Shown one piece after another: positions 31,217-40,434 of a stretch of DNA of 64,000 bases. How positions within the stretch are numbered: position 1 is the stretch's first letter; the number at the start of each line of letters is the position of its first letter. This DNA comes from Xanthocytophaga agilis. Lineage in GTDB: Bacteria; Bacteroidota; Bacteroidia; Cytophagales; 172606-1. The notes beneath the pieces are model-generated. The model made no database searches. It saw nothing but the letters and a program-made list of their open reading frames with translations, and was not told where the DNA came from. The stretch is taken from NCBI RefSeq assembly GCF_030068605.1, contig NZ_JASJOU010000006.1, forward strand, positions 310,001 to 374,000, in the 5' to 3' direction. The translations under genes and the position numbers were made by a program.

Positions 31217-32209
31217 CTAAAGTTCCTTTGTCAGAAAGACATCTTCCACCTTCTTCTGAAGTATCCTGTTTTCAGAACCAATGGTTACTGTGATCTTTTC
31301 TCCATACTGTATTTGCTGCTTTCGGGATATCCATTGCATAGGGTCATTGCCTGCAAATGGATCATACACATAGCGATTACTCTGGATAGCAACTTTCTGA
31401 AGTACTACAGTTTTTTCGGAGGCAGAAACCTTGACATCAATAATTTCATAGTGACCACCTGATAATTTTTTATTCAGTTTATCCTGTAATGTTTCTGCTG
31501 GAAAGAAGAACAGGTTTTGTATACGTTTGTCCCTAAAATCGAAAGTTGTAAACATAATTCCTTTCCAATTATGCTCCATATCTTCTGCAATGTTTGCCAA
31601 AAATACTGTTCCATCTGACTCTGGAATCAGCACAAACCGATTGCGTCTTGTTACATCTGCTCCTACTTCAAGTAAATCTGATGACTGAGTTTGAGGTTGG
31701 TAGCGCATTACATAAATGGCATCATCCGATTCTGTATAGACTGCATAGACATCCCCTTTGTTGTCAATCCAATACCCATGACTACTAGTTCCATTATCAA
31801 CAGGCAGCGAAAAGCTCTGCTGAACCGAAAAACTGGCATTCAGTATTTTGAACGATGTTTGTAATTGTGGCTGGCTATAGTCATAGCGATACACCAGATA
31901 AAGCTTCTTGTCAGGTGAAGATACAACATTGTATTGATATTCAAAGGGATATAAACGAGGCTGACCAGATAGAATGGCATTCTGAAAGCTTTGACGTACC
32001 GTTGCTTTGCCTGGACTGGATTGCATAGGGGATATCTGTACCGAATCAATCGTTTTACGATTTACTTTCAGTGTTGTATAATGTTTTTGCACACTGAAAT
32101 CTTCCCAGCGAAATGGTTTTTGAGGTAGAGGCGCCTGTAATTCCTGCCCTTGAACAGATAGGATTGTGTATATAAATAATAAACTTGTATATAGCTGTTT
32201 CTGAATCAT
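31217..32209 (-). CDS. Exported protein at the end of the bio operon, hypothetical
   Basis: The 330-residue protein has a signal peptide (residues 1-21, ending SVQGQ). Its body is beta-rich, with repeats resembling a propeller (YLVYRYDYSQPQLQTSFKILNASFSVQQSF, YWIDNKGDVYAVYTESDDAIYVMRYQP). No family is recognised. The start codon overlaps the bioA stop by 4 bp (ATGA type), so it is translationally coupled to biotin synthesis genes, although an exported protein has no obvious role in that pathway. Confidence 0.75.
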   Translation of the reverse strand: MIQKQLYTSLLFIYTILSVQGQELQAPLPQKPFRWEDFSVQKHYTTLKVNRKTIDSVQISPMQSSPGKATVRQSFQNAILSGQPRLYPFEYQYNVVSSPDKKLYLVYRYDYSQPQLQTSFKILNASFSVQQSFSLPVDNGTSSHGYWIDNKGDVYAVYTESDDAIYVMRYQPQTQSSDLLEVGADVTRRNRFVLIPESDGTVFLANIAEDMEHNWKGIMFTTFDFRDKRIQNLFFFPAETLQDKLNKKLSGGHYEIIDVKVSASEKTVVLQKVAIQSNRYVYDPFAGNDPMQWISRKQQIQYGEKITVTIGSENRILQKKVEDVFLTKEL

Positions 32210-33564
32210 TCGTTTTCCACCATTTTGTTTAACAAATTTTCAATCTCCTGATAAAGTACCTGTAGTTCTTCATCTGTAATGATATAAGGTGTCATAAGGT
32301 AAATAACATTTCCCATTGGACGGAGTAAGATGTCGTGTTCCAGAAAATAGTCATATAGGCTGTTGCGTACTTCGTTAAAATAAGATGTTTTCGCATTTGT
32401 TCTGATTTCAAGTGCTAACACAATACCTGTTTGCCGGATGTCCAGTATGGCTGGATGTGATGCTATATGCTTGGCAAAAGAAGTATGACTTTGTTCAATG
32501 CGGATAATTGCTTCCTGACAACTAACAGACAGTAGTAAATCCAGACTGGCATTTGCTGCTACACAGGATAATGGGTTTGCTGTGAAGGAATGCCCGTGGA
32601 AGAATGTTTTCAGCAAATCTTTGGTATGATAGGGGCGTTGTACTTCATCAGTACAGGCCGTTACACCCAATGGCAGTGTTCCTCCTGTTAAACCTTTAGA
32701 CAGACAGATGATATCAGGTTTAATTTCGCAATGGTCAGAGGCGAACAGCTTGCCAGTACGCCCAAATCCTGTCATCACTTCATCTGCAATACAGAGTATC
32801 TGATATTGTTTGGCAATACCTAATAACTGGTTCAGTATTTCTGGAGAGCACATACGCATACCTGCAGAACCCTGTATCAGGGGTTCATAGATAAACGCTG
32901 CAACTTCTCCACTTTCAGCCAATGCCTCAAATTGATGAACGATTTCTTCCTGCACATGTGTATGTTCAATGAGATCTGTTGTGTAGGTTTTGGGATTTTC
33001 TGGAAAAGGAATAAACTCAACCTCAAACAGAAATGGATGAAACGGAGTAGTGAATGTATTCCGTTCTCCAACAGACATGGCTCCAAAGGTATCACCATGA
33101 TACGCTCCTTCAAACGCAATGATGCGTCGTTTTTGTATGCCCTGATTGTGCCAGTACTGAAAGGCCATTTTCATGCCTACTTCTGTAGCTGTACTCCCAT
33201 TATCTGAGTAAAATATCTTTGAGATAGTGTCTGGTAAAATATCCAGCAGCCGTTCTGCCAGTGTAACAGCTGGTTCATGAGTAAAGCCTGCAAAGATCAC
33301 ATGTTCCAGTGTACGTGCCTGCTGTGCTATTTTCTCCGCAATGTATTCATTAGAATGCCCATGTAAATTTACCCACCAGGAACCAATAGCATCCAGAATT
33401 TTACGTCCGTCAGCGCGATGTAAGTAACAGCCTTTGGCACCTGTCAGAGGTACTATTTTATGGCTATCGGTAAGAGGGGTAAAAGGGTGCCAGATAGCTT
33501 TCTGATCCCTTGTTTTCCAGTCGTTCTGATCTATTTCTGGCAGATTATCAATGCTCGTACTCAT
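32206..33564 (-). CDS. bioA: Adenosylmethionine-8-amino-7-oxononanoate aminotransferase
   Basis: This PLP enzyme converts KAPA to DAPA, using SAM as amino donor. The start is set at ATG 33564 (MSTSIDNLPEIDQ): the frame stays open 35 codons further up, but that extension is a hydrophobic run not found in BioA. Motifs include WHPFTP near residue 25, GSWWVNLHGH at 61-70, the PLP aspartate in IADEVMTGFGRTGK and the Schiff-base lysine in LSKGLTGG. The length of 452 is near normal. It follows bioD by 109 bp and overlaps the next gene by 4 bp. Confidence 0.95.
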   Translation of the reverse strand: MSTSIDNLPEIDQNDWKTRDQKAIWHPFTPLTDSHKIVPLTGAKGCYLHRADGRKILDAIGSWWVNLHGHSNEYIAEKIAQQARTLEHVIFAGFTHEPAVTLAERLLDILPDTISKIFYSDNGSTATEVGMKMAFQYWHNQGIQKRRIIAFEGAYHGDTFGAMSVGERNTFTTPFHPFLFEVEFIPFPENPKTYTTDLIEHTHVQEEIVHQFEALAESGEVAAFIYEPLIQGSAGMRMCSPEILNQLLGIAKQYQILCIADEVMTGFGRTGKLFASDHCEIKPDIICLSKGLTGGTLPLGVTACTDEVQRPYHTKDLLKTFFHGHSFTANPLSCVAANASLDLLLSVSCQEAIIRIEQSHTSFAKHIASHPAILDIRQTGIVLALEIRTNAKTSYFNEVRNSLYDYFLEHDILLRPMGNVIYLMTPYIITDEELQVLYQEIENLLNKMVENE

Positions 33565-33673
33565 ACAAATAATTATAACGTAATTCTTTTCGCCTCGATC
33601 AAAGAGGAAAGTAAGAAAATAAAAAAGGGTTACAGTTCCGAGAAGAAAATTTAAAAGTATAGTAGACAACTTT

Positions 33674-34297
33674 TTACATAATAAAGGCTTTTCTCAATTG
33701 TTGTGCATAGCTGTGTACTACTTCTGGAGTGATCTGTTCTTCCGGATAGACATGTAACAATAACGGATATTGACTGTAGTTCAATATAAATTGTTCGGAG
33801 TCTTCGTTGGCAGGGCCATTAAAAATAATTCCTTTTACAGGGATATTACGGTGTTTTAGTTCATTAATGGTAAGCAGTGTATGGTTAATGCTACCCAGAT
33901 ATATGTTAGCTACAAGAATAACTTCTGCCTCAAATTTCCGGGCTATGTCTATCACAAAATGCTGATTGCTGACAGGTACCAACACTCCTCCTGCTCCTTC
34001 AATAATTAGTGTATTATGAGTATTGGGTAGTACCAATGCCTGAATATCTATTTCGACTCCTTCTCTGTGCGCTGCTGCATGAGGCGACATTGGATGTTGT
34101 AAGAGATATGCCTCATTATGAAACTGCGAAACGGGATTGCTTACTAGGGTTTGAACTTTTTCTGTATCACGGGGAAAGCCTGCCTGAATGGGTTTCCAGT
34201 AATCGGCCTGTAAAGCCTCTGTGACTATGGCACTGATCAGCGTTTTGCCAGAATCTGTACCAATAGCTGTAATGAAGTATAGGTTAGATGGATTCAT
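33674..34297 (-). CDS. bioD: Dethiobiotin synthetase
   Basis: This ATP-dependent enzyme closes the ureido ring of dethiobiotin from DAPA and CO2. The P-loop GTDSGKT spans 13-19 (usually GTDTGKT). KPIQAG and IEGAGGVLVPV are the other nucleotide- and substrate-binding motifs. The length of 207 is normal. It sits 18 bp after bioF and is followed by bioA. Confidence 0.95.
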   Translation of the reverse strand: MNPSNLYFITAIGTDSGKTLISAIVTEALQADYWKPIQAGFPRDTEKVQTLVSNPVSQFHNEAYLLQHPMSPHAAAHREGVEIDIQALVLPNTHNTLIIEGAGGVLVPVSNQHFVIDIARKFEAEVILVANIYLGSINHTLLTINELKHRNIPVKGIIFNGPANEDSEQFILNYSQYPLLLHVYPEEQITPEVVHSYAQQLRKAFIM

Positions 34298-34315
34298 AGT
34301 GGTTTGCTTGTATTC

Positions 34316-35503
34316 TTAATTCTCAACAGATATAGGAGTATTCTGGAGGACAATTGATAATTCTTCTAGTAAAGCTTCCATTTCCTGTTCTGTGTTATAA
34401 AGGTGCAGGCAGATACGTAACCGTTCTTCGCCTTCTTTAACTGTGGGTGAAAGAATAGGACGTACATCAAATCCACTTTGTTGTAGTTGGATTGCCACCA
34501 TTCGGGTACGTTGATTTCCTCCAATCTTTACAGCCTGAATAGGGCTCTGTGACTCAATAAAATGAGGTTCCAGAGAAGGATAAGTTGAGAGTGCTTTTCG
34601 GAAAAACTGAATACTTGCATGCAAAGAATCCTGCAGAATCATATGATCTTGTTGAAAGCGGAATGACTCTTCAATAGACACCAGACTATGCAGGGGTAAT
34701 GCAGTTGTATAGATCAATGGCCGGGCAAAGTTGATCAGGTATTGAATCAAGACTTCTGATCCGGCAATACAGCCACCATGTACACCTGGTCCTTTGCCAA
34801 AGGTATATACCCGTGCAAATATTCTTTCATGAAGATTCTCCATACAAGCAATACCATTCCCTTCCCTACCCCAAACACCTGTACTGTGAGCTTCGTCCCA
34901 GATCAGATTTGCCCCATATTTTTCACACAGTGTTACCAATTCCAGTAGAGGAGCAAAGTCTCCGTCCATAGAGTAAACCGATTCTGCTACCACAAATACA
35001 TCTCCTGTTGCCTTTTGCATTTTTCGTTCCAGATCATGAAGATCGTTGTGATGAAATGCAAACCGATTCGCAAAGCTCAGACGGGCACCTTCTTTTAGGC
35101 TGGCATGGATGTATTCGTCGTAAATGATTGTATCTCCTTTTTGAGGAATAGCTGAAAGAATAGCTGTGTTGGCAGCATAGCCAGAATTGAATAGCAATGC
35201 ACTTTCAGATTGAAACAGACTGGCAAGCTTTTTTTCCAGAGAGATATGATACTCAGAGTTTCCGGAAATCAATCGGGAACCTGTGGCACCATTGTGAATA
35301 TCTGAAACGTTTGTATAGGCTTCTTGAATACGTTGATGTAAGGATTTATTACGGGCAAGACCCAGATAGTCGTTTGAGCAAAAATCTATTTTGTTTTTAT
35401 CTGCAACAGATAGCTTTCTCAAACTGCCACTGGCTTCCCGTTGGTTTAGCTTATCCTTTAGCTTTTGTTGTATACTCATAAGTTGCAGCATTCTAATGGC
35501 CAA
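34316..35503 (-). CDS. bioF: 8-amino-7-oxononanoate synthase
   Basis: This PLP-dependent alpha-oxoamine synthase joins pimeloyl thioester and alanine to form KAPA. The PLP lysine is Lys237 in TFGKGPGVHGG; DEAHSTG (203-209) binds the cofactor, and FCSNDYLGLA is the usual start region. Three in-frame ATGs (35503, 35491, 35479) precede the conserved part; the longest is given, but MSIQQ at 35479 fits the family equally well. It is the first gene of a bioF-bioD-bioA unit with a -7 box about 70 bp upstream. No bioC or bioH for pimelate supply is visible. Confidence 0.92.
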   Translation of the reverse strand: MAIRMLQLMSIQQKLKDKLNQREASGSLRKLSVADKNKIDFCSNDYLGLARNKSLHQRIQEAYTNVSDIHNGATGSRLISGNSEYHISLEKKLASLFQSESALLFNSGYAANTAILSAIPQKGDTIIYDEYIHASLKEGARLSFANRFAFHHNDLHDLERKMQKATGDVFVVAESVYSMDGDFAPLLELVTLCEKYGANLIWDEAHSTGVWGREGNGIACMENLHERIFARVYTFGKGPGVHGGCIAGSEVLIQYLINFARPLIYTTALPLHSLVSIEESFRFQQDHMILQDSLHASIQFFRKALSTYPSLEPHFIESQSPIQAVKIGGNQRTRMVAIQLQQSGFDVRPILSPTVKEGEERLRICLHLYNTEQEMEALLEELSIVLQNTPISVEN

Positions 35504-35566
35504 TAAATATATCTGAAAGAGAGAGCGTTAAGCTTAATTGTTCTCTCTGAAAATAATTAATGACTA

Positions 35567-35574
35567 CAAAAGTA
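35567..35574 (-). promoter_or_regulatory. -7 box of the bioFDA operon
   Basis: Read on the minus strand the bases are TACTTTTG, matching TAnnTTTG. The leader then contains an AGAGAG/CTCTCT hairpin (35520-35525 with 35543-35548). The -33 element is not well placed. Confidence 0.5.
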
Positions 35575-35598
35575 AGGAAAGACGAAAACAAAAAAGCC

Positions 35599-35629
35599 TT
35601 TCAAACGTAGATATCTCATTCTATTTTTG
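35599..35629 (+). promoter_or_regulatory. Promoter of the small barrel gene
   Basis: TTTC (35599-35602), a 19-base spacer and TATTTTTG (35622-35629) fit the Bacteroidota consensus. The -7 box covers the ATG at 35627, so translation must start at 35660. Confidence 0.6.
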
Positions 35630-35659
35630 CACGTTTTATTATCAACTTACACCTATTTT

Positions 35660-36310
35660 ATGCAAACAAAGCAGCGTTTTTTATTCTTCTGTACTTGTTT
35701 TATTCTATTACTTTCTTTTTCAGGAGTGAAAGCTCAACAGCGTTGGAGTGTGGGGCCTCGGTTAGGTGCCACGATCTCAAAGATTACAGGTGATGCTCCA
35801 AACAATGGCTTTCTGCCTGGTTTCACAGGTGGTTTGTATGTAATGTATAGCGACATAAGCCATTTTGGGATTTCAGGAGATGTTCTGTTTGCACAAAAGG
35901 GAGCTAAATATGACTATAATGGTACTAAGTTTATCCAGCGGATCAACTACATTGATGTGCCGATTATGGCCCGCTACTTTATGAATCTGAAAGGAAAAGT
36001 TCGTCCGAATATCTTTATAGGTGGAAACATTGCTTTTTTGCTCAATGCCAAGGCAAAAGATCGTACTGATAATGGAGTAGCCCGACCTGATGTAGAGAAT
36101 ACAAGTTCATTTGCCAGTACTGATCTGGGATTTTTGGCGGGTGTAGGGTTTAACTTCAAAGTTTCCAAAGCCCGTTGGGTACAAACAGATTTCCGCTTTC
36201 AGCAAAGTCTGACTCCGATTCAAATTTCTTCAGCTCCGGATCGTCGCAATACAAGTATCAATATATTGCTGAGTTATGCCTTTGGAGTAGGCAAGAAATA
36301 CAGAAACTAG
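35660..36310 (+). CDS. Small PorT-family outer-membrane barrel protein, hypothetical
   Basis: The start at 35660 gives a classical signal peptide (MQTKQRF to GVKAQQ); an ATG 33 bases upstream is excluded because it lies in the predicted -7 box. The 216-residue protein is an eight-stranded OMP_b-brl_2 type barrel: RWSVGPRLGATISKI, FGISGDVLFAQKGAKY, INYIDVPIMARYFM and a terminal NILLSYAFGVGKKYRN. Function is unknown. Its stop codon is 10 bp before the left end of a terminal-inverted-repeat segment. Confidence 0.82.
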   Translation: MQTKQRFLFFCTCFILLLSFSGVKAQQRWSVGPRLGATISKITGDAPNNGFLPGFTGGLYVMYSDISHFGISGDVLFAQKGAKYDYNGTKFIQRINYIDVPIMARYFMNLKGKVRPNIFIGGNIAFLLNAKAKDRTDNGVARPDVENTSSFASTDLGFLAGVGFNFKVSKARWVQTDFRFQQSLTPIQISSAPDRRNTSINILLSYAFGVGKKYRN

Positions 36311-36319
36311 GGTTAAAGA

Positions 36320-36722
36320 TGTAACATGAGTCATCCCAGATTTTGAGGAAAATAATATCACATTCCTTAAGAAAAAGAGAAACAAAGGAGTTACAAAGAG
36401 AGCCAAGATCACTTCAATCGTGGAAGGTTACGTAGGTGCGTGAGAATAAAAATTCCGCGGGCCTAGCGTTGGCCCTGTGGGGCGAAGCTTTGGAATTTTT
36501 TGCTCACGCACCGATCTGGCTCACCAAACTCTCGTTTGGTGCCCTGTTTTTTGGCAAGCAAAAAATGAAGGAGCCTAGAGAAGAGGGATGAAAGTGACTA
36601 TAAACAAACTCAACTAAAGAGATTGCTTAAAAATTAACCAGCGTCTATACTCTTTTCAAAAGCATAGACGCTGGTTTTGTAAAACAAACTCTCATCCAAA
36701 ATTCGGGATGACTCATGTTACA
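36320..36722. mobile_element. Candidate 403-bp element with 18-bp perfect terminal inverted repeats
   Basis: TGTAACATGAGTCATCCC at 36320-36337 is exactly repeated in reverse complement at 36705-36722, and similarity continues a few bases inward (ATTTTG on both sides). Inside are GGTGCGTGAG/CTCACGCACC (36435-36444 with 36503-36512), AATTCC/GGAATT (36451-36456 with 36492-36497), CACCAAAC/GTTTGGTG (36522-36529 with 36534-36541) and a 13-bp terminator-like stem. The central 36430-36560 is visibly more GC-rich than its surroundings. No coding capacity. The right end supplies the stop codon of the AlbA_2 gene. A MITE-like origin is inference; no clear target duplication was seen. Confidence 0.5.
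36636..36676 (-). terminator. Terminator of the AlbA_2 gene, inside the inverted-repeat segment
   Basis: A 13-bp perfect stem (36636-36648 with 36664-36676) has a 15-base loop and is followed on the minus strand by TAATTTTTAA. It lies about 40 bp past the AlbA_2 stop codon. Confidence 0.7.
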
Positions 36723-37365
36723 CTTTTCCAGAAAGGTTTCTGGATGATAATGTATAGACTACATCTTTGTCTCTCTCAACTGGCAACACAATCTGATGGC
36801 TGGACAACTCCATGAGCAGTCGGGTGGCTCTACGCTCTGAAATATTGATCAGCTTTGCATACCGCTTGACTGTAATGTATTCATTAGACAAAAGGTATTT
36901 CAATAGGTTTTTCACATTTCCAGATTGCAGTAATGTCTTATCTGCATCGTTAGTATAACTTCCCAGATTACGGGCTGTCAGCTTTCCTGTAGGAACACTC
37001 TTATCGTGCATACGTACATATACCGTTTCCTCCCCATTTCTTTCTTTCAGCAAATGAGGTTTATCTTCACTTTCAGGTATGGTTACGGCCAGTATTTCCT
37101 TCCCATCTATGGGAATAAGCTCATAGCGAATAAGAATAGGCGGATGACAATACATATCTGAAGCTTCTTCCAGCAAGCTGATTATTTCTACTTCAGATTT
37201 TATCCCACATATTCTTTTATCATCTGTAACACCTATTAGTACTATTCCTCCTCCAGTATTGGCAAATGCAACTAATGTTTTGGCGATTTTGGCAGGACTT
37301 TCAATGGTGCTCTTAAATTCCAGTGTGCTACTTTCGCCTTGCCCAATAAGTTCTATAATATTCAA
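36718..37365 (-). CDS. AlbA_2 (Schlafen AlbA-like) domain protein
   Basis: The 215-residue cytoplasmic protein begins GQGESSTLEFKSTI, followed by KTLVAFANTGGGIVLIGVTDD, the hallmark of AlbA_2 domains (residues about 8-125). These bind nucleic acid or nucleotides and occur in Schlafen-like proteins and in many bacterial regulators. The C-terminal 70 residues look like a winged-helix segment (LLKYLLSNEYITVKRYAKLINISERRATRLLMEL), which suggests a DNA-binding regulator. It is divergent from rtcB, 187 bp away. The stop codon lies inside the right terminal repeat of the adjacent element, so the last residues may have been altered by that insertion. Confidence 0.85.
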   Translation of the reverse strand: MNIIELIGQGESSTLEFKSTIESPAKIAKTLVAFANTGGGIVLIGVTDDKRICGIKSEVEIISLLEEASDMYCHPPILIRYELIPIDGKEILAVTIPESEDKPHLLKERNGEETVYVRMHDKSVPTGKLTARNLGSYTNDADKTLLQSGNVKNLLKYLLSNEYITVKRYAKLINISERRATRLLMELSSHQIVLPVERDKDVVYTLSSRNLSGKV

Positions 37366-37376
37366 GTATCAAAATG

Positions 37377-37408
37377 TTTTATAATTAAAAACGTTTCCCT
37401 TATCTTTG
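37377..37408 (+). promoter_or_regulatory. Promoter of rtcB
   Basis: TATCTTTG at 37401-37408 is a perfect -7 box. TTTT at 37377-37380 with a 20-base spacer is a weak -33. The predicted leader is about 137 bases. Confidence 0.55.
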
Positions 37409-37411
37409 CAG

Positions 37412-37506
37412 CGCCTTTCAGAAAGGCGGCTGCTCTAACATCGGTGTCAGGCACCAGATTCCTCTTATTCAAACTCCAAATCAGGAGTTGTGAGTCTTTT
37501 CAGACT
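37412..37506 (+). promoter_or_regulatory. Structured rtcB leader with four hairpins
   Basis: Four small stems follow one another: CGCCTT/AAGGCG (37412-37417 with 37423-37428), GGTG/CACC (37443-37446 with 37452-37455), AACTCC/GGAGTT (37472-37477 with 37484-37489) and AGTCT/AGACT (37493-37497 with 37502-37506). It is not a tRNA or riboswitch that I recognise. Confidence 0.45.
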
Positions 37507-37552
37507 TGCACAAATTTTCTTTTATACAAGTTTACTAAGATTTTGATTTTTG

Positions 37553-39070
37553 ATGAAGCGAATTTCTTCATTTGAATCTGTTATTGGCAATGCCTACGGT
37601 ATTCCGGTGCATCTATTTGCCAATGAACAGGTAAAAGTTGAAAACTCAGCCATTGAAGAATTGCTGGGCTTTCTTGAATTACAGCAGACCCTTGAACAGA
37701 TACAACAAGCTGATCCCGATTTTTTTGGGACGACAGATATTGGCATTGGCCGGGTGGCTATTACACCTGATTTCCATAAAGGATCTGGCATACCTATCGG
37801 AACAACAATTACTACAAAAGGGTTTATTCTGCCTCAGGCTATCGGCAAGGATATTAATTGTGGCATGCGGTTATATATAACGGATCTGTCAGAAGAGCAG
37901 GTTCGTTCTAAGCTGAAAGAGATGACAAAGCGAATCCGTCATGTATACTTTCAGGGAGGTCGCGAGTTGCCGATTACACCCCGCCAGAAGAAAGCCTTGC
38001 TTCAATATGGTTTACAGGGCTTATGGGAAACCAGTCATGAAACTGTAGGCAAGGGATTGTGGCGTCAGTACAACGCACTACAACAAGAGGCTGATCTGCA
38101 ACGGATAATCGATCGGGGTTCTTTACAGGCTGGTGGTATTTTCAATGGCCTGGAGAATTATACAAGTATTGATTATACATCCTATGATGCACAATTAGGA
38201 TCTATTGGGGGCGGCAATCACTTTGTAGAAGTACAACGTGTGGCTGATATTACAGATGGTGCCATTGCCTATGAATGGGGGCTGAAGAAGGATGCTGTTG
38301 TGGTAATGATCCATACCGGTTCTGTTAGCATTGGGTATCCTACAGCGATGGCTTTTAAAGATTATCTTACAGATCTGTATCCAACAGGATTGCGAAAACC
38401 TGATAACGGAATTTTGCCCTTACCTATATCTGAGAAGTATGCAGGTTTTGTGGAGAACTTCTTTATGGGTTTATACAACGCAGCCAACTTTGCTTTTGCC
38501 AATCGGTTGTTTCTGGGACTGATGATGCAGAAAGTGTTTTCAGAGTTTTTTGGTGATACAGATTTTCGTTTGCTGTATGATTCAGGCCATAACATGGTAT
38601 GGCAACAGAAAACAGTTGGCGAAGAATGGTTCCTGCATCGCAAAGGCGCTTGTCCGGCACGAGGTGCAGAACAGCTACAAAATACACCCTTTGCGTGGAC
38701 AGGAGAACCTGCACTGATTCCGGGATCTATGGGAACCTCGTCATTTATTCTGGCGGGATGTGGCAATGCGCAAAGTAATTTCAGTGCCAGTCATGGTGCA
38801 GGGCGTAGTCTGTCACGTGGTGAGTCCATGAAATACGATGAGGCTGCCTTTTCAAAGTTTCTGGAAGAATTCCATATCATCACGCCTATTGATCCGGAGA
38901 GTACAGAAATCAGATCCAGGCGGGATATAATCCAGAAATGGCACGATGAACTGAAAAAAGAAGCCCCTTTTGCATTTAAGCCTGTGCGTCCGGTTATTGA
39001 CACACAACTGGAAGCTGGTATAGTTCGCCAAGTTGCTGAAACAAAGCCAATTTTTACTGTGAAAGGATAA
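37553..39070 (+). CDS. rtcB: RtcB-family RNA ligase
   Basis: RtcB joins 2',3'-cyclic phosphate or 3'-phosphate RNA ends to 5'-OH ends, with GTP and manganese, in RNA repair. ATG 37553 is used; an in-frame TTG lies directly before it. The 505-residue protein keeps DFHKGSGIPIG, GKDINCGMR (metal cysteine), GGGNHFVE, IPGSMGTSSFI and the guanylylation region SHGAGRSLSRGE, and ends IFTVKG, much like E. coli RtcB. The usual HSGSRGxG motif is HTGSVSIG here, so its arginine is missing. No prfH (release factor H) or rtcA is adjacent. Confidence 0.93.
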   Translation: MKRISSFESVIGNAYGIPVHLFANEQVKVENSAIEELLGFLELQQTLEQIQQADPDFFGTTDIGIGRVAITPDFHKGSGIPIGTTITTKGFILPQAIGKDINCGMRLYITDLSEEQVRSKLKEMTKRIRHVYFQGGRELPITPRQKKALLQYGLQGLWETSHETVGKGLWRQYNALQQEADLQRIIDRGSLQAGGIFNGLENYTSIDYTSYDAQLGSIGGGNHFVEVQRVADITDGAIAYEWGLKKDAVVVMIHTGSVSIGYPTAMAFKDYLTDLYPTGLRKPDNGILPLPISEKYAGFVENFFMGLYNAANFAFANRLFLGLMMQKVFSEFFGDTDFRLLYDSGHNMVWQQKTVGEEWFLHRKGACPARGAEQLQNTPFAWTGEPALIPGSMGTSSFILAGCGNAQSNFSASHGAGRSLSRGESMKYDEAAFSKFLEEFHIITPIDPESTEIRSRRDIIQKWHDELKKEAPFAFKPVRPVIDTQLEAGIVRQVAETKPIFTVKG

Positions 39071-39183
39071 TTTCTGCTCAACTCGTTGTAGGAGGCAATC
39101 GTCAGTCATCTCTACAACGGTATAAATTGATCAGAAGTCTGATATTTCTGAGGTGTGATCAATATTCAGATAATTTGGAAAAA

Positions 39184-39229
39184 TGACTGGAGTTCCATTC
39201 AAACAGAAATTTGAACTAAACTCCAGTCA
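39184..39229 (-). terminator. Second, distal hairpin downstream of bioB
   Basis: TGACTGGAGTT (39184-39194) pairs with AACTCCAGTCA (39219-39229), with an inner stem TTCAAA/TTTGAA (39198-39203 with 39210-39215). On the minus strand it is followed by TTTTTCC, so it fits a terminator for leftward transcription. Confidence 0.55.
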
Positions 39230-39403
39230 AATAAAAAAATGAACACTATTCGAATATTTCCTGGATGTAACCTGTATTCAGTTCAAAACAGGAAGTGATC
39301 GGAATTCTAGTCAAAAGCGATCTTGATCAGTTGGGAGTTGGATAATGACAGACCTGATCTATTTTTATAAATTGTGGCACATCGTGGAAGGTTATAAAGA
39401 GAA

Positions 39404-39433
39404 AAGCCTTTTTGTTTCCAAACAAAAAGGCTT
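39404..39433 (-). terminator. Terminator of bioB
   Basis: A 14-bp perfect stem (39404-39417 with 39420-39433) has a two-base gap at the tip and is followed on the minus strand by TTCTCTTT. It starts 26 bases after the bioB stop. Confidence 0.85.
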
Positions 39434-39459
39434 CTCATACTTAGCTATAAACGTATTTA

Positions 39460-40434
39460 TTAACAAGCTGCTACTGATTCTTCTTTGAATGACTTACGAG
39501 GTTTCAGATTTAATGTCTGGAACAACATTTTATCCGCATCTACTTCCGGATTTGGAGTTGTCAGCAGTTTATCTCCGGCAAAGATAGAGTTGGCCCCTGC
39601 CAGGAAACAAAGTGCCTGCTCTTCTGTATTCATACGTACACGGCCTGCTGATAAACGAACCATTGCCCGTGGCATTATAATACGTGCAGTAGCAATCATC
39701 CGTACCATTTCCCAAACAGAAACGCGCTCCTGGTCTTCCAGTGGAGTACCTTCTACAGGAACCAATGCATTTACAGGAACAGACTCAGGATGTTCGGGAA
39801 GGGTTGACAATACATGTAACATACCTATACGGTCGTTTTCTGTCTCTCCTAATCCAATAATACCACCAGCACATACAGAAATACCTGATTTACGCACATG
39901 TTCAATAGTTTCCAGACGATCATCGTAATTACGGGTAGTGATGATTTCGTTATAAAACTCCTCACTCGTATCCAGGTTATGGTTATAGGCATATAAACCT
40001 GCATCTTTCAGTTTTATTGCCTGTTCATGTGTCAGCATACCTAATGTACAGCATACTTCCATACCCATCTGGTTGACACCTTTGACCATATCCAGTACTT
40101 TGTCAAAGTCTTTGTTGTCACGTACTTCCCGCCAAGCAGCTCCCATACAAAAACGAGTACTACCATTGTCTTTGGCTCGCTGGGCTGTTTCCAGCACTTC
40201 CTCTACCTCTAGCAATCTATGCACTTTTACATTGGTCTGATAGCGTGCTGCTTGTGGACAATAGGCACAGTCTTCCGGACAACCACCTGTTTTCACTGAA
40301 AGCAAAGTACAAACTTGCACTTCTTGTGGGTCGTGGTGCTGACGATGTACAGTGCCTGCACGATAAATCAAATCTAATATAGGGGAGTTGAAAATTTCAG
40401 CGATTTCTTCGCGGGTCCAGTCGTTACGAATCAT
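39460..40434 (-). CDS. bioB: Biotin synthase
   Basis: This radical SAM enzyme inserts sulfur into dethiobiotin to form biotin. The [4Fe-4S] motif is CPEDCAYC (Cys52, Cys56, Cys59). [16 protein letters not shown] and VCAGGI hold the [2Fe-2S] ligands, and YNHNLDT is the substrate region. The length of 324 is normal. It is transcribed alone on the same strand as bioFDA but about 4 kb away, with the AlbA_2 and rtcB genes between. A -7 box TAATTTTG is at 40530-40537 on the minus strand. Confidence 0.96.

Follow-up and report, generated by a model that had tools for sequence, protein, structure and literature searches.

A MITE-like element of Xanthocytophaga agilis with the ends of a Tn5-fold IS family that probably replaces or duplicates terminator-like hairpins

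We consider it likely that the element at positions 36320-36722 of the window (the whole 64,000-nucleotide stretch of X. agilis DNA that was analysed) is a non-autonomous member of a Tn5-fold IS family which replaces or duplicates terminator-like hairpins. Hairpins were replaced or duplicated at most of the resolved sites, and no fixed duplication accompanied them. In the resolvable site pairs of two genera, the empty allele opposite an IS or MITE insertion mostly carries a terminator-like hairpin, which was removed symmetrically from foot to foot and in a few cases duplicated. The features of the site are:

36323..36719, + strand: element proper, 397 bp, MITE-like and non-autonomous (boundaries from a 24-copy alignment and the X. 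flavus empty allele)
36323..36345, + strand: left TIR, AACATGAGTCATCCCAGATTTTG, common to other copies and IS ends
36697..36719, - strand: right TIR (CAAAATTCGGGATGACTCATGTT on the + strand), from the inverted-repeat search, other copies and IS ends
36320..36322, + strand: TGT, putative left stem remnant of the target hairpin, with 6 bp of uncertainty in the boundary (X. flavus empty allele TGTAACATGCCTT..AAGGCATGTTACA)
36720..36722, + strand: ACA, putative right remnant of the same target stem (sequence, ORFs and X. flavus empty allele)
36390..36590, + strand: core module (GTTACAAAGAGAG ... CAAAAAATGAAGGAGCC...), bounds approximate (similar cores elsewhere)
36435..36512, + strand: hairpin 1, arms 36435-36451 and 36496-36512, cassette type A in the window copy (repeat search, copy alignment)
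36522..36541, + strand: hairpin 2, inner stem CACCAAACTCTCGTTTGGTG, terminator-like on the + strand (terminator consensus scan)
36636..36676, - strand: hairpin 3, 19 pairs, arms 36636-36654 and 36658-36676, terminator-like in the AlbA_2 direction, tail AATTTTTAAG (repeat search, terminator consensus scan)
35627..36310, + strand: left neighbour, outer membrane beta-barrel protein (PF13568; ORF and Pfam)
36718..37365, - strand: right neighbour, SLFN_AlbA_2 protein (PF04326; ORF and Pfam)

The preliminary description gave the element perfect 18-bp TIRs. The ends are indeed exact inverted copies, 36320-36337 (TGTAACATGAGTCATCCC) being the exact reverse complement of 36705-36722, and in the repeat search the inverted arms extended to 31 nt with 87% complementarity (36315-36345 and 36697-36727). 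The outermost 3 bp are a different matter. The inverted end proper to the family, AACATGAGTCATCCC..., starts at 36323 and, inward, at 36719; the outer TGT and ACA lie outside the family sequence, are also present in the element-less X. flavus, and are probably remnants of the stem of the target hairpin. The GC-richer core noted before was borne out (54% at 36420-36519 vs 34% in the first and 35% in the last 100 bases). Three interior hairpins are clear and RNA folding suggested further weaker ones, so that the earlier count of four was roughly right. The predicted RNA fold had an energy of -152.4 kcal/mol (z -9.3), which none of 100 shuffles equalled. The consensus scan found the intrinsic-terminator pattern (a GC stem followed by a T tract) at 3 sites compared with 0.7 expected, the stems at 36636-36676 (- strand) and 36522-36541 (+ strand) being predicted terminators.

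The element was described as free of genes and as filling the space between its neighbours, and both claims held. No ORF of at least 60 aa in the ORF list lies wholly within it, and an antisense 60-aa ORF (36230-36412) overlaps its left part. The barrel and Schlafen/AlbA_2 genes are convergent and the element fills the spacer between them; the AlbA_2 stop codon (36718-36720, - strand), rightly placed inside the right end, spans the junction between the element and the right ACA remnant. The site is surrounded at 32206-40434 by what are presumably biotin genes (bioA, bioD, bioF and a bioB-like gene, from our reading of the ORFs), and RtcB was identified by Pfam nearby at 37550-39070. The convergent spacers of the window have long symmetric hairpins, mostly of the form A-tract/stem/T-tract, in a highly regular bidirectional terminator style.

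In the element's own genome (G000), at least 99 match pieces at E 10 or better were found by BLAST, with the best 40 of 153 candidates scored, and a profile search of selected stretches gave at least 46 element loci in G000 and at least 17 in X. flavus (G001). The preliminary description had regarded a single copy with the same flanks in all relatives as the mark of two facing terminators. Two facing single-copy terminators are ruled out by the multiple genomic copies, and the X. flavus allele is without the element, as are 7 more of the 20 sites tried. The many copies, the IS-like ends and the absence from the orthologous X. flavus site agree with the earlier proposal of a non-autonomous mobile element or multi-copy intergenic repeat. 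Full-length or nearly full-length G000 matches were only 68-79% identical to the window copy, and most Xanthocytophaga copies therefore look old at the sequence level. Among 39 genomes of relatives, 7 gave some match; beyond G000 and G001 these were just 23-43-base pieces, one of which, in G034, is the end of a 256-bp element. The exact 20-mer of the family end, AACATGAGTCATCCCGAATTTTG, occurred in at least 117 stretches of public genomes. Among the 80 matches listed, the hosts were Lewinella, Neolewinella, Spirosoma, Flectobacillus, Emticicia, Saprospiraceae, Chloroflexi MAGs and others, and many of these stretches could be bounded as ISs of 1433-1467 bp or as MITEs of about 150-420 bp. Similar cores were also found elsewhere without recognisable inverted ends.

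The TIR of the window element is also carried by ISs with intact ORFs in other genomes (L099, L103, L105, L117, L127, L134, L150 and L173). Like a MITE, the element thus has TIRs, many copies, no transposase gene and ends in common with an autonomous transposon. The intact ISs have a single ORF encoding a protein of 443-455 aa; two ISs of F. longus (L143 and L151) are full length as DNA with shortened ORFs (404 and 364 aa). Residues D129, D231 and E356 and the YREK motif (Y-2-R-3-E-6-K) were invariant in the 8 aligned transposases, and 7 of these 8 ORFs end in ..QNSG-stop within the right inverted repeat. The AlphaFold model of the transposase had a pLDDT of 72, and its six best PDB matches were Tn5 transposase or its inhibitor form (E 1.5e-14 to 3.2e-9, TM-scores 0.45-0.58). 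By sequence, the PDB gave weak Tn5 matches alone (E 0.026 and up). The nearest NCBIfam models were those of IS4, under the curated cut-off (best 58.6 bits vs 152, E 5.5e-16), and no IS1182-family model was listed for the five transposases. Pfam DDE_Tnp_1 was above its cut-off for L099 and L127 and just below it for L117. The DDE residues with YREK, the single ORF and the Tn5-like fold are those of the IS4 family; direct repeats of 7-13 bp were not found, and the NCBIfam IS4 cut-off was not reached. No intact transposase was found in G000 or G001, so that current mobility there is unproven: G000 has a decayed relative alone (C21), two pieces of which gave nothing useful in Pfam, and G001 had none at E 0.001. 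By sequence comparison, the window element appears to be a non-autonomous MITE-like relative of the 1.43-1.49 kb ISs with a Tn5-fold DDE/YREK transposase in Bacteroidota and Chloroflexota.

In X. flavus, the place of the element at the window site is taken by a terminator-like hairpin, TGTAACATGCCTT-TGTAAAT-AAGGCATGTTACA. The X. flavus allele reads TGT AACATGCCTT TGTAAAT AAGGCATGTT ACA, with a 13-bp stem, and that of G000 reads TGT [397-bp element] ACA; the empty allele was bracketed as TGT[AACATGCCTTTGTAAATAAGGCATGTT]ACA. The X. flavus hairpin contains AACATG/CATGTT, as do the element ends, and the boundary at this site is therefore uncertain by 6 bp. That the empty allele is itself a hairpin goes beyond the preliminary description, as do the modular interior, its covarying stems and some cassette exchange.

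For 20 G000 copies, a search of G001 with their flanks gave 8 sites without the element, 9 shared or complex sites and 3 unplaced on both sides (L004 and two copies at C4:481119). Five of the nine align through with the element in both genomes and two are shared with nested repeats; the remaining two are L232, which lacks the element but has another repeat and unalignable flanks, and L234, with one flank. From G001, 8 of 10 copies were searched in G000. The breakpoint set described below did not include L237 (occupied by another repeat), L238 and L241 (a single flank each) or L239 (element in both genomes), nor the nine shared or complex sites and the three unplaced copies. At the intergenic site of L081 (G001:C55:480800) and L239, both species carry the element but in opposite orientations, and a terminator-like hairpin flanks it on one side or on both. 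The empty alleles of L003, L063 and the second C5:430600 copy each consist of a perfect, unrelated hairpin, and the filled alleles keep no recognisable trace of it. The filled alleles of L002 and L017 have the whole hairpin on either side of the element (26 and 45 bp), and a third duplication, of 24 bp, was seen by eye at L085, which the algorithm did not resolve. The empty allele of L025 has no hairpin, that of L070 only a weak, offset one, and L075 fitted at the left junction only.

Earlier breakpoints had been set by hand with the hairpins in view, and their algorithmic repeat is the more trustworthy version. In this repeat, 16 site pairs from two genera were listed and 15 evaluated (L076 was skipped). 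Exact symmetric replacement of a hairpin was found in 7 of the 15 pairs (L001, L003, L063, L059b, L143, L151 and L155), with end-to-end stems of 11-22 bp within 3 nt and replaced structures of 27-48 bp. Hairpin duplication was found in 2 of the 15 (L002 and L017), and the flanks of L160 and L122 were too diverged for a judgement. Random segments showed such symmetry in about 0.65% of cases per site at 6 of the 7 hand-set sites and in 1.3% at L070. The main weak points are the small number of fully resolved Xanthocytophaga sites and the lack of an outgroup: the 1600 bases of G001 flanks used as queries had no match in the outgroup G002, and the Xanthocytophaga sites are therefore unpolarised.

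In Flectobacillus, five insertions were compared between F. longus and strain BAB-3569, and the ISs L143 and L151 and the MITE L155 exactly replace hairpins, which include AAAAAGGCAAAGTCC-AC-GGACTTTGCCTTTTT. The left anchor of L143 was short (score 12.5) because it adjoins another repeat. Many contig ends of strain BAB-3569 carry IS copies with 91-95% identity to L143, and 9 of 27 flanks of these copies, from 7 insertions, were placed at orthologous F. longus loci; L281 is the same junction as L156. The other 18 flanks were unused, with no match, matches in repeats or, for L286, one weak match (best 40 of 545 candidates scored). In the empty alleles, a strong hairpin lay at the junction in 9 of 9 cases and started exactly there in 7; at the two sides of one insertion (L270/L274), it lay within about 10 nt of the junction. 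At L118 and L156 of Flectobacillus sp. BAB-3569, the IS end is shortly preceded by a partial and older copy of that left end, as though the IS had hit a hairpin beside an earlier insertion.

It is unlikely, in our judgement, that the copies are instead a selected family of structured RNAs or bidirectional terminators, kept for a host function with mobility incidental. The strong folding and the terminator-like hairpins of the element would suit such a family, and crude ORF calls place 21 of the 46 G000 copies and 9 of the 17 G001 copies between convergent genes. The three interior stems also covary. Pairing was kept in 95.1% of the cells of the 24-copy alignment, and the covariation score was 0.307 vs 0.139 in shuffled and 0.047-0.127 in slid alignments. 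However, doubly changed pairs and pair types were no more numerous than in the shuffles, and the presence of the element varies between close species. Moreover, hairpin 1 occurs with alternative cassettes (stems AAAAATTCC/GGAATTTTT, CTTTTCTCC/GGAGAAAAG, CCTTTTCCC/GGGAAAAGG and others), and hairpin 2 likewise. One copy matches its orthologue at 93-99% identity in the ends, whereas its middle is nearest to other copies; two further orthologous pairs have differing middles. The covariation therefore partly reflects the swapping of whole stems, which needs no selection at the RNA level. Some copies appear to have exchanged interior hairpin cassettes. This is not general, since one orthologous pair has 317 of 330 positions identical over its whole length, and at five shared sites the alignment runs from one end to the other at 88-95%. 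The stem-broken chimera L021 also speaks against a selected RNA, as does Rfam, in which nothing was near the cut-off for the element and microRNA matches were far under the gathering scores.

Two further arrangements of the interior were seen. The orthologues L072 (G000:C16) and L080 (G001:C2), of about 700-800 bp, have two cores head to head, and their cassettes differ between the species. In G001, members of another repeat family, with ends like CCTTATCNTGTYCCATA and with TTTCAGGAGGACAG-type units, are inserted in the element at the apex of its hairpin 1; such nested repeats lie at G001:C62 near 333000 (L227) and G001:C11 near 809400 (L233) and are absent from the G000 orthologues.

The usual sign of a DDE transposon is a short target duplication of constant size. 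No target duplication of fixed length, otherwise a mark of MITEs, was found among 92 and 96 elements. Direct repeats of 4 or more were present at the ends of only 1 of 96 elements, and 2-bp direct repeats were mildly in excess (15 of 92 vs 8.0 expected). An ordinary MITE, moved into AT-rich spacers by cut-and-paste and making a short target duplication, is very improbable here, even if that excess is counted in its favour and the old copies could have lost short duplications by decay. The empty-allele hairpins would then be the usual terminators of convergent spacers, and a strong hairpin was indeed found in 8 of 8 usable convergent intergenic regions of the window, supplied at this site by the element itself. 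Terminators are common in such spacers anyway, and the telling points are only exactness and hairpin loss. Both count against the ordinary MITE: the hairpin was lost symmetrically, foot to foot, in the 7 of 15 pairs, and the junction was exact at 7 of the 9 placed junctions of the closely similar Flectobacillus IS copies.

Replacement of palindromes should leave stem bases behind, so that the flanks on either side of an element are complementary. The summed complementary run at the flanks of 96 elements was 96 compared with 55.3 in permutations (p 0.0002). For the 51 elements outside the main Xanthocytophaga set, nearly all from other genera and with at least one X. flavus element (L174) included, it was 66 vs 36.5 (p 0.0002); the main Xanthocytophaga set alone (45 elements) gave 30 vs 22.8, which was not significant (p 0.14). 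A general enrichment of hairpins beside filled sites was not seen, a score of 11 being reached by 6 of 190 flanks.

The least probable reading is the reverse direction, with the element or IS ancestral and a hairpin formed in its place in the other species (deletion with a new terminator, or collapse of the element). It would be allowed by the AACATG/CATGTT common to the window-site hairpin and the element ends, by the unpolarised Xanthocytophaga sites and by the several copies common to both species, which are therefore older than the species split. Against it, the other empty-allele hairpins share little with the element besides A/T tracts, and for the strong, unrelated terminators at seven Flectobacillus insertions the simplest reading is that they came first.

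For replacement and duplication of hairpins by a Tn5-fold IS family, the reading we prefer, the target palindrome would be extruded as a cruciform or a single-strand hairpin, and the feet of the two hairpins would be where the two 3' ends of the element are joined. The hairpin would be lost if these were the 3' feet and duplicated if they were the 5' feet; because the outcome would be set by the feet joined, no fixed target duplication would arise. The element hairpins at 36522-36541 and 36636-36676, predicted terminators, may take over termination for both convergent genes, and the insertion would be tolerated because a terminator is swapped for a terminator. Later, some copies may swap interior hairpin cassettes by recombination or gene conversion. 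This would be the two-outcome chemistry of IS1272 running with a Tn5-type transposase, and the data fit both branches of the IS1272 model, deletion and duplication. We also lean towards a broader reading, namely that an IS4-type Tn5-fold family in Bacteroidota and Chloroflexota targets terminator cruciforms by shape and not by sequence, that deletion or duplication is set solely by the feet attacked, and that the family, as its MITEs carry terminators, spreads by terminator swapping. This would supply the missing model for the long variable duplications of the IS4 superfamily. If true, it would also explain why insertions are tolerated, 3' of genes and terminator for terminator. Furthermore, annotated "perfect TIRs" can include left-over target stem.

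A literature search, with subscription journals partly and ISfinder wholly outside its scope, found no publication on the TIRs of the family or on hairpin replacement of the IS4 type. The palindromes of REP/BIME are reportedly IS targets, a finding said to be that of Tobes and Pareja in 2006. The present insertions resemble the insertion of ISs into palindromic intergenic repeats as described for REP/BIME (PMC3733652), but the targets here are unrelated hairpins that are removed or duplicated whole. By description only, the element can be likened to BOX, RUP and SPRITE of pneumococcus (Croucher et al., 2011, PMC3049150), which are MITE-like and multi-copy; BOX is modular with variable middle modules, and SPRITE is terminator-like. 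BOX and RUP are said there to cause target duplications, whereas here the target is a hairpin and the ends are of an identified IS kind. The partner IS is like the IS4 family (De Palmenaer et al., 2008, PMC2266710) in its DDE spacing, YREK, single ORF and length of about 1.45 kb, but the direct repeats of about one helix turn that mark the family according to that paper were not found here. IS1549 and IS1634 have long variable repeats of 8-514 bp, for which the account in the same paper names no mechanistic model at that date; if our broader reading is true, these variable-length duplications become testable as palindrome lengths.

IS1272, of the IS1182 family, moves by "replacement by structure-dependent transposition" (Wan et al., 2017, PMC5678879). 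In the model set out there, the stem-loop is deleted if the 3' ends are joined to the 3' feet of a cruciform and duplicated if they are joined to its 5' feet. As for IS1272, an inverted-repeat target of any sequence was exactly replaced here with no target duplication, at most but not all of the resolved sites. The targets are of similar kind in size, 21-85 bp for IS1272 (model A) vs 27-48 bp in the exact cases here, and both predicted products were seen in the present family, whereas duplication is given as a possible pathway in the account of IS1272 (PMC5678879). Unlike IS1272, the transposase is IS4/Tn5-like with YREK and had no IS1182-family model listed, the targets look like intrinsic terminators, and MITEs take part. 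If our reading is true, structure-dependent targeting is no peculiarity of IS1272, as a widespread Tn5-like family does likewise. What is new relative to IS1272 is hairpin-targeting behaviour with a different type of transposase.
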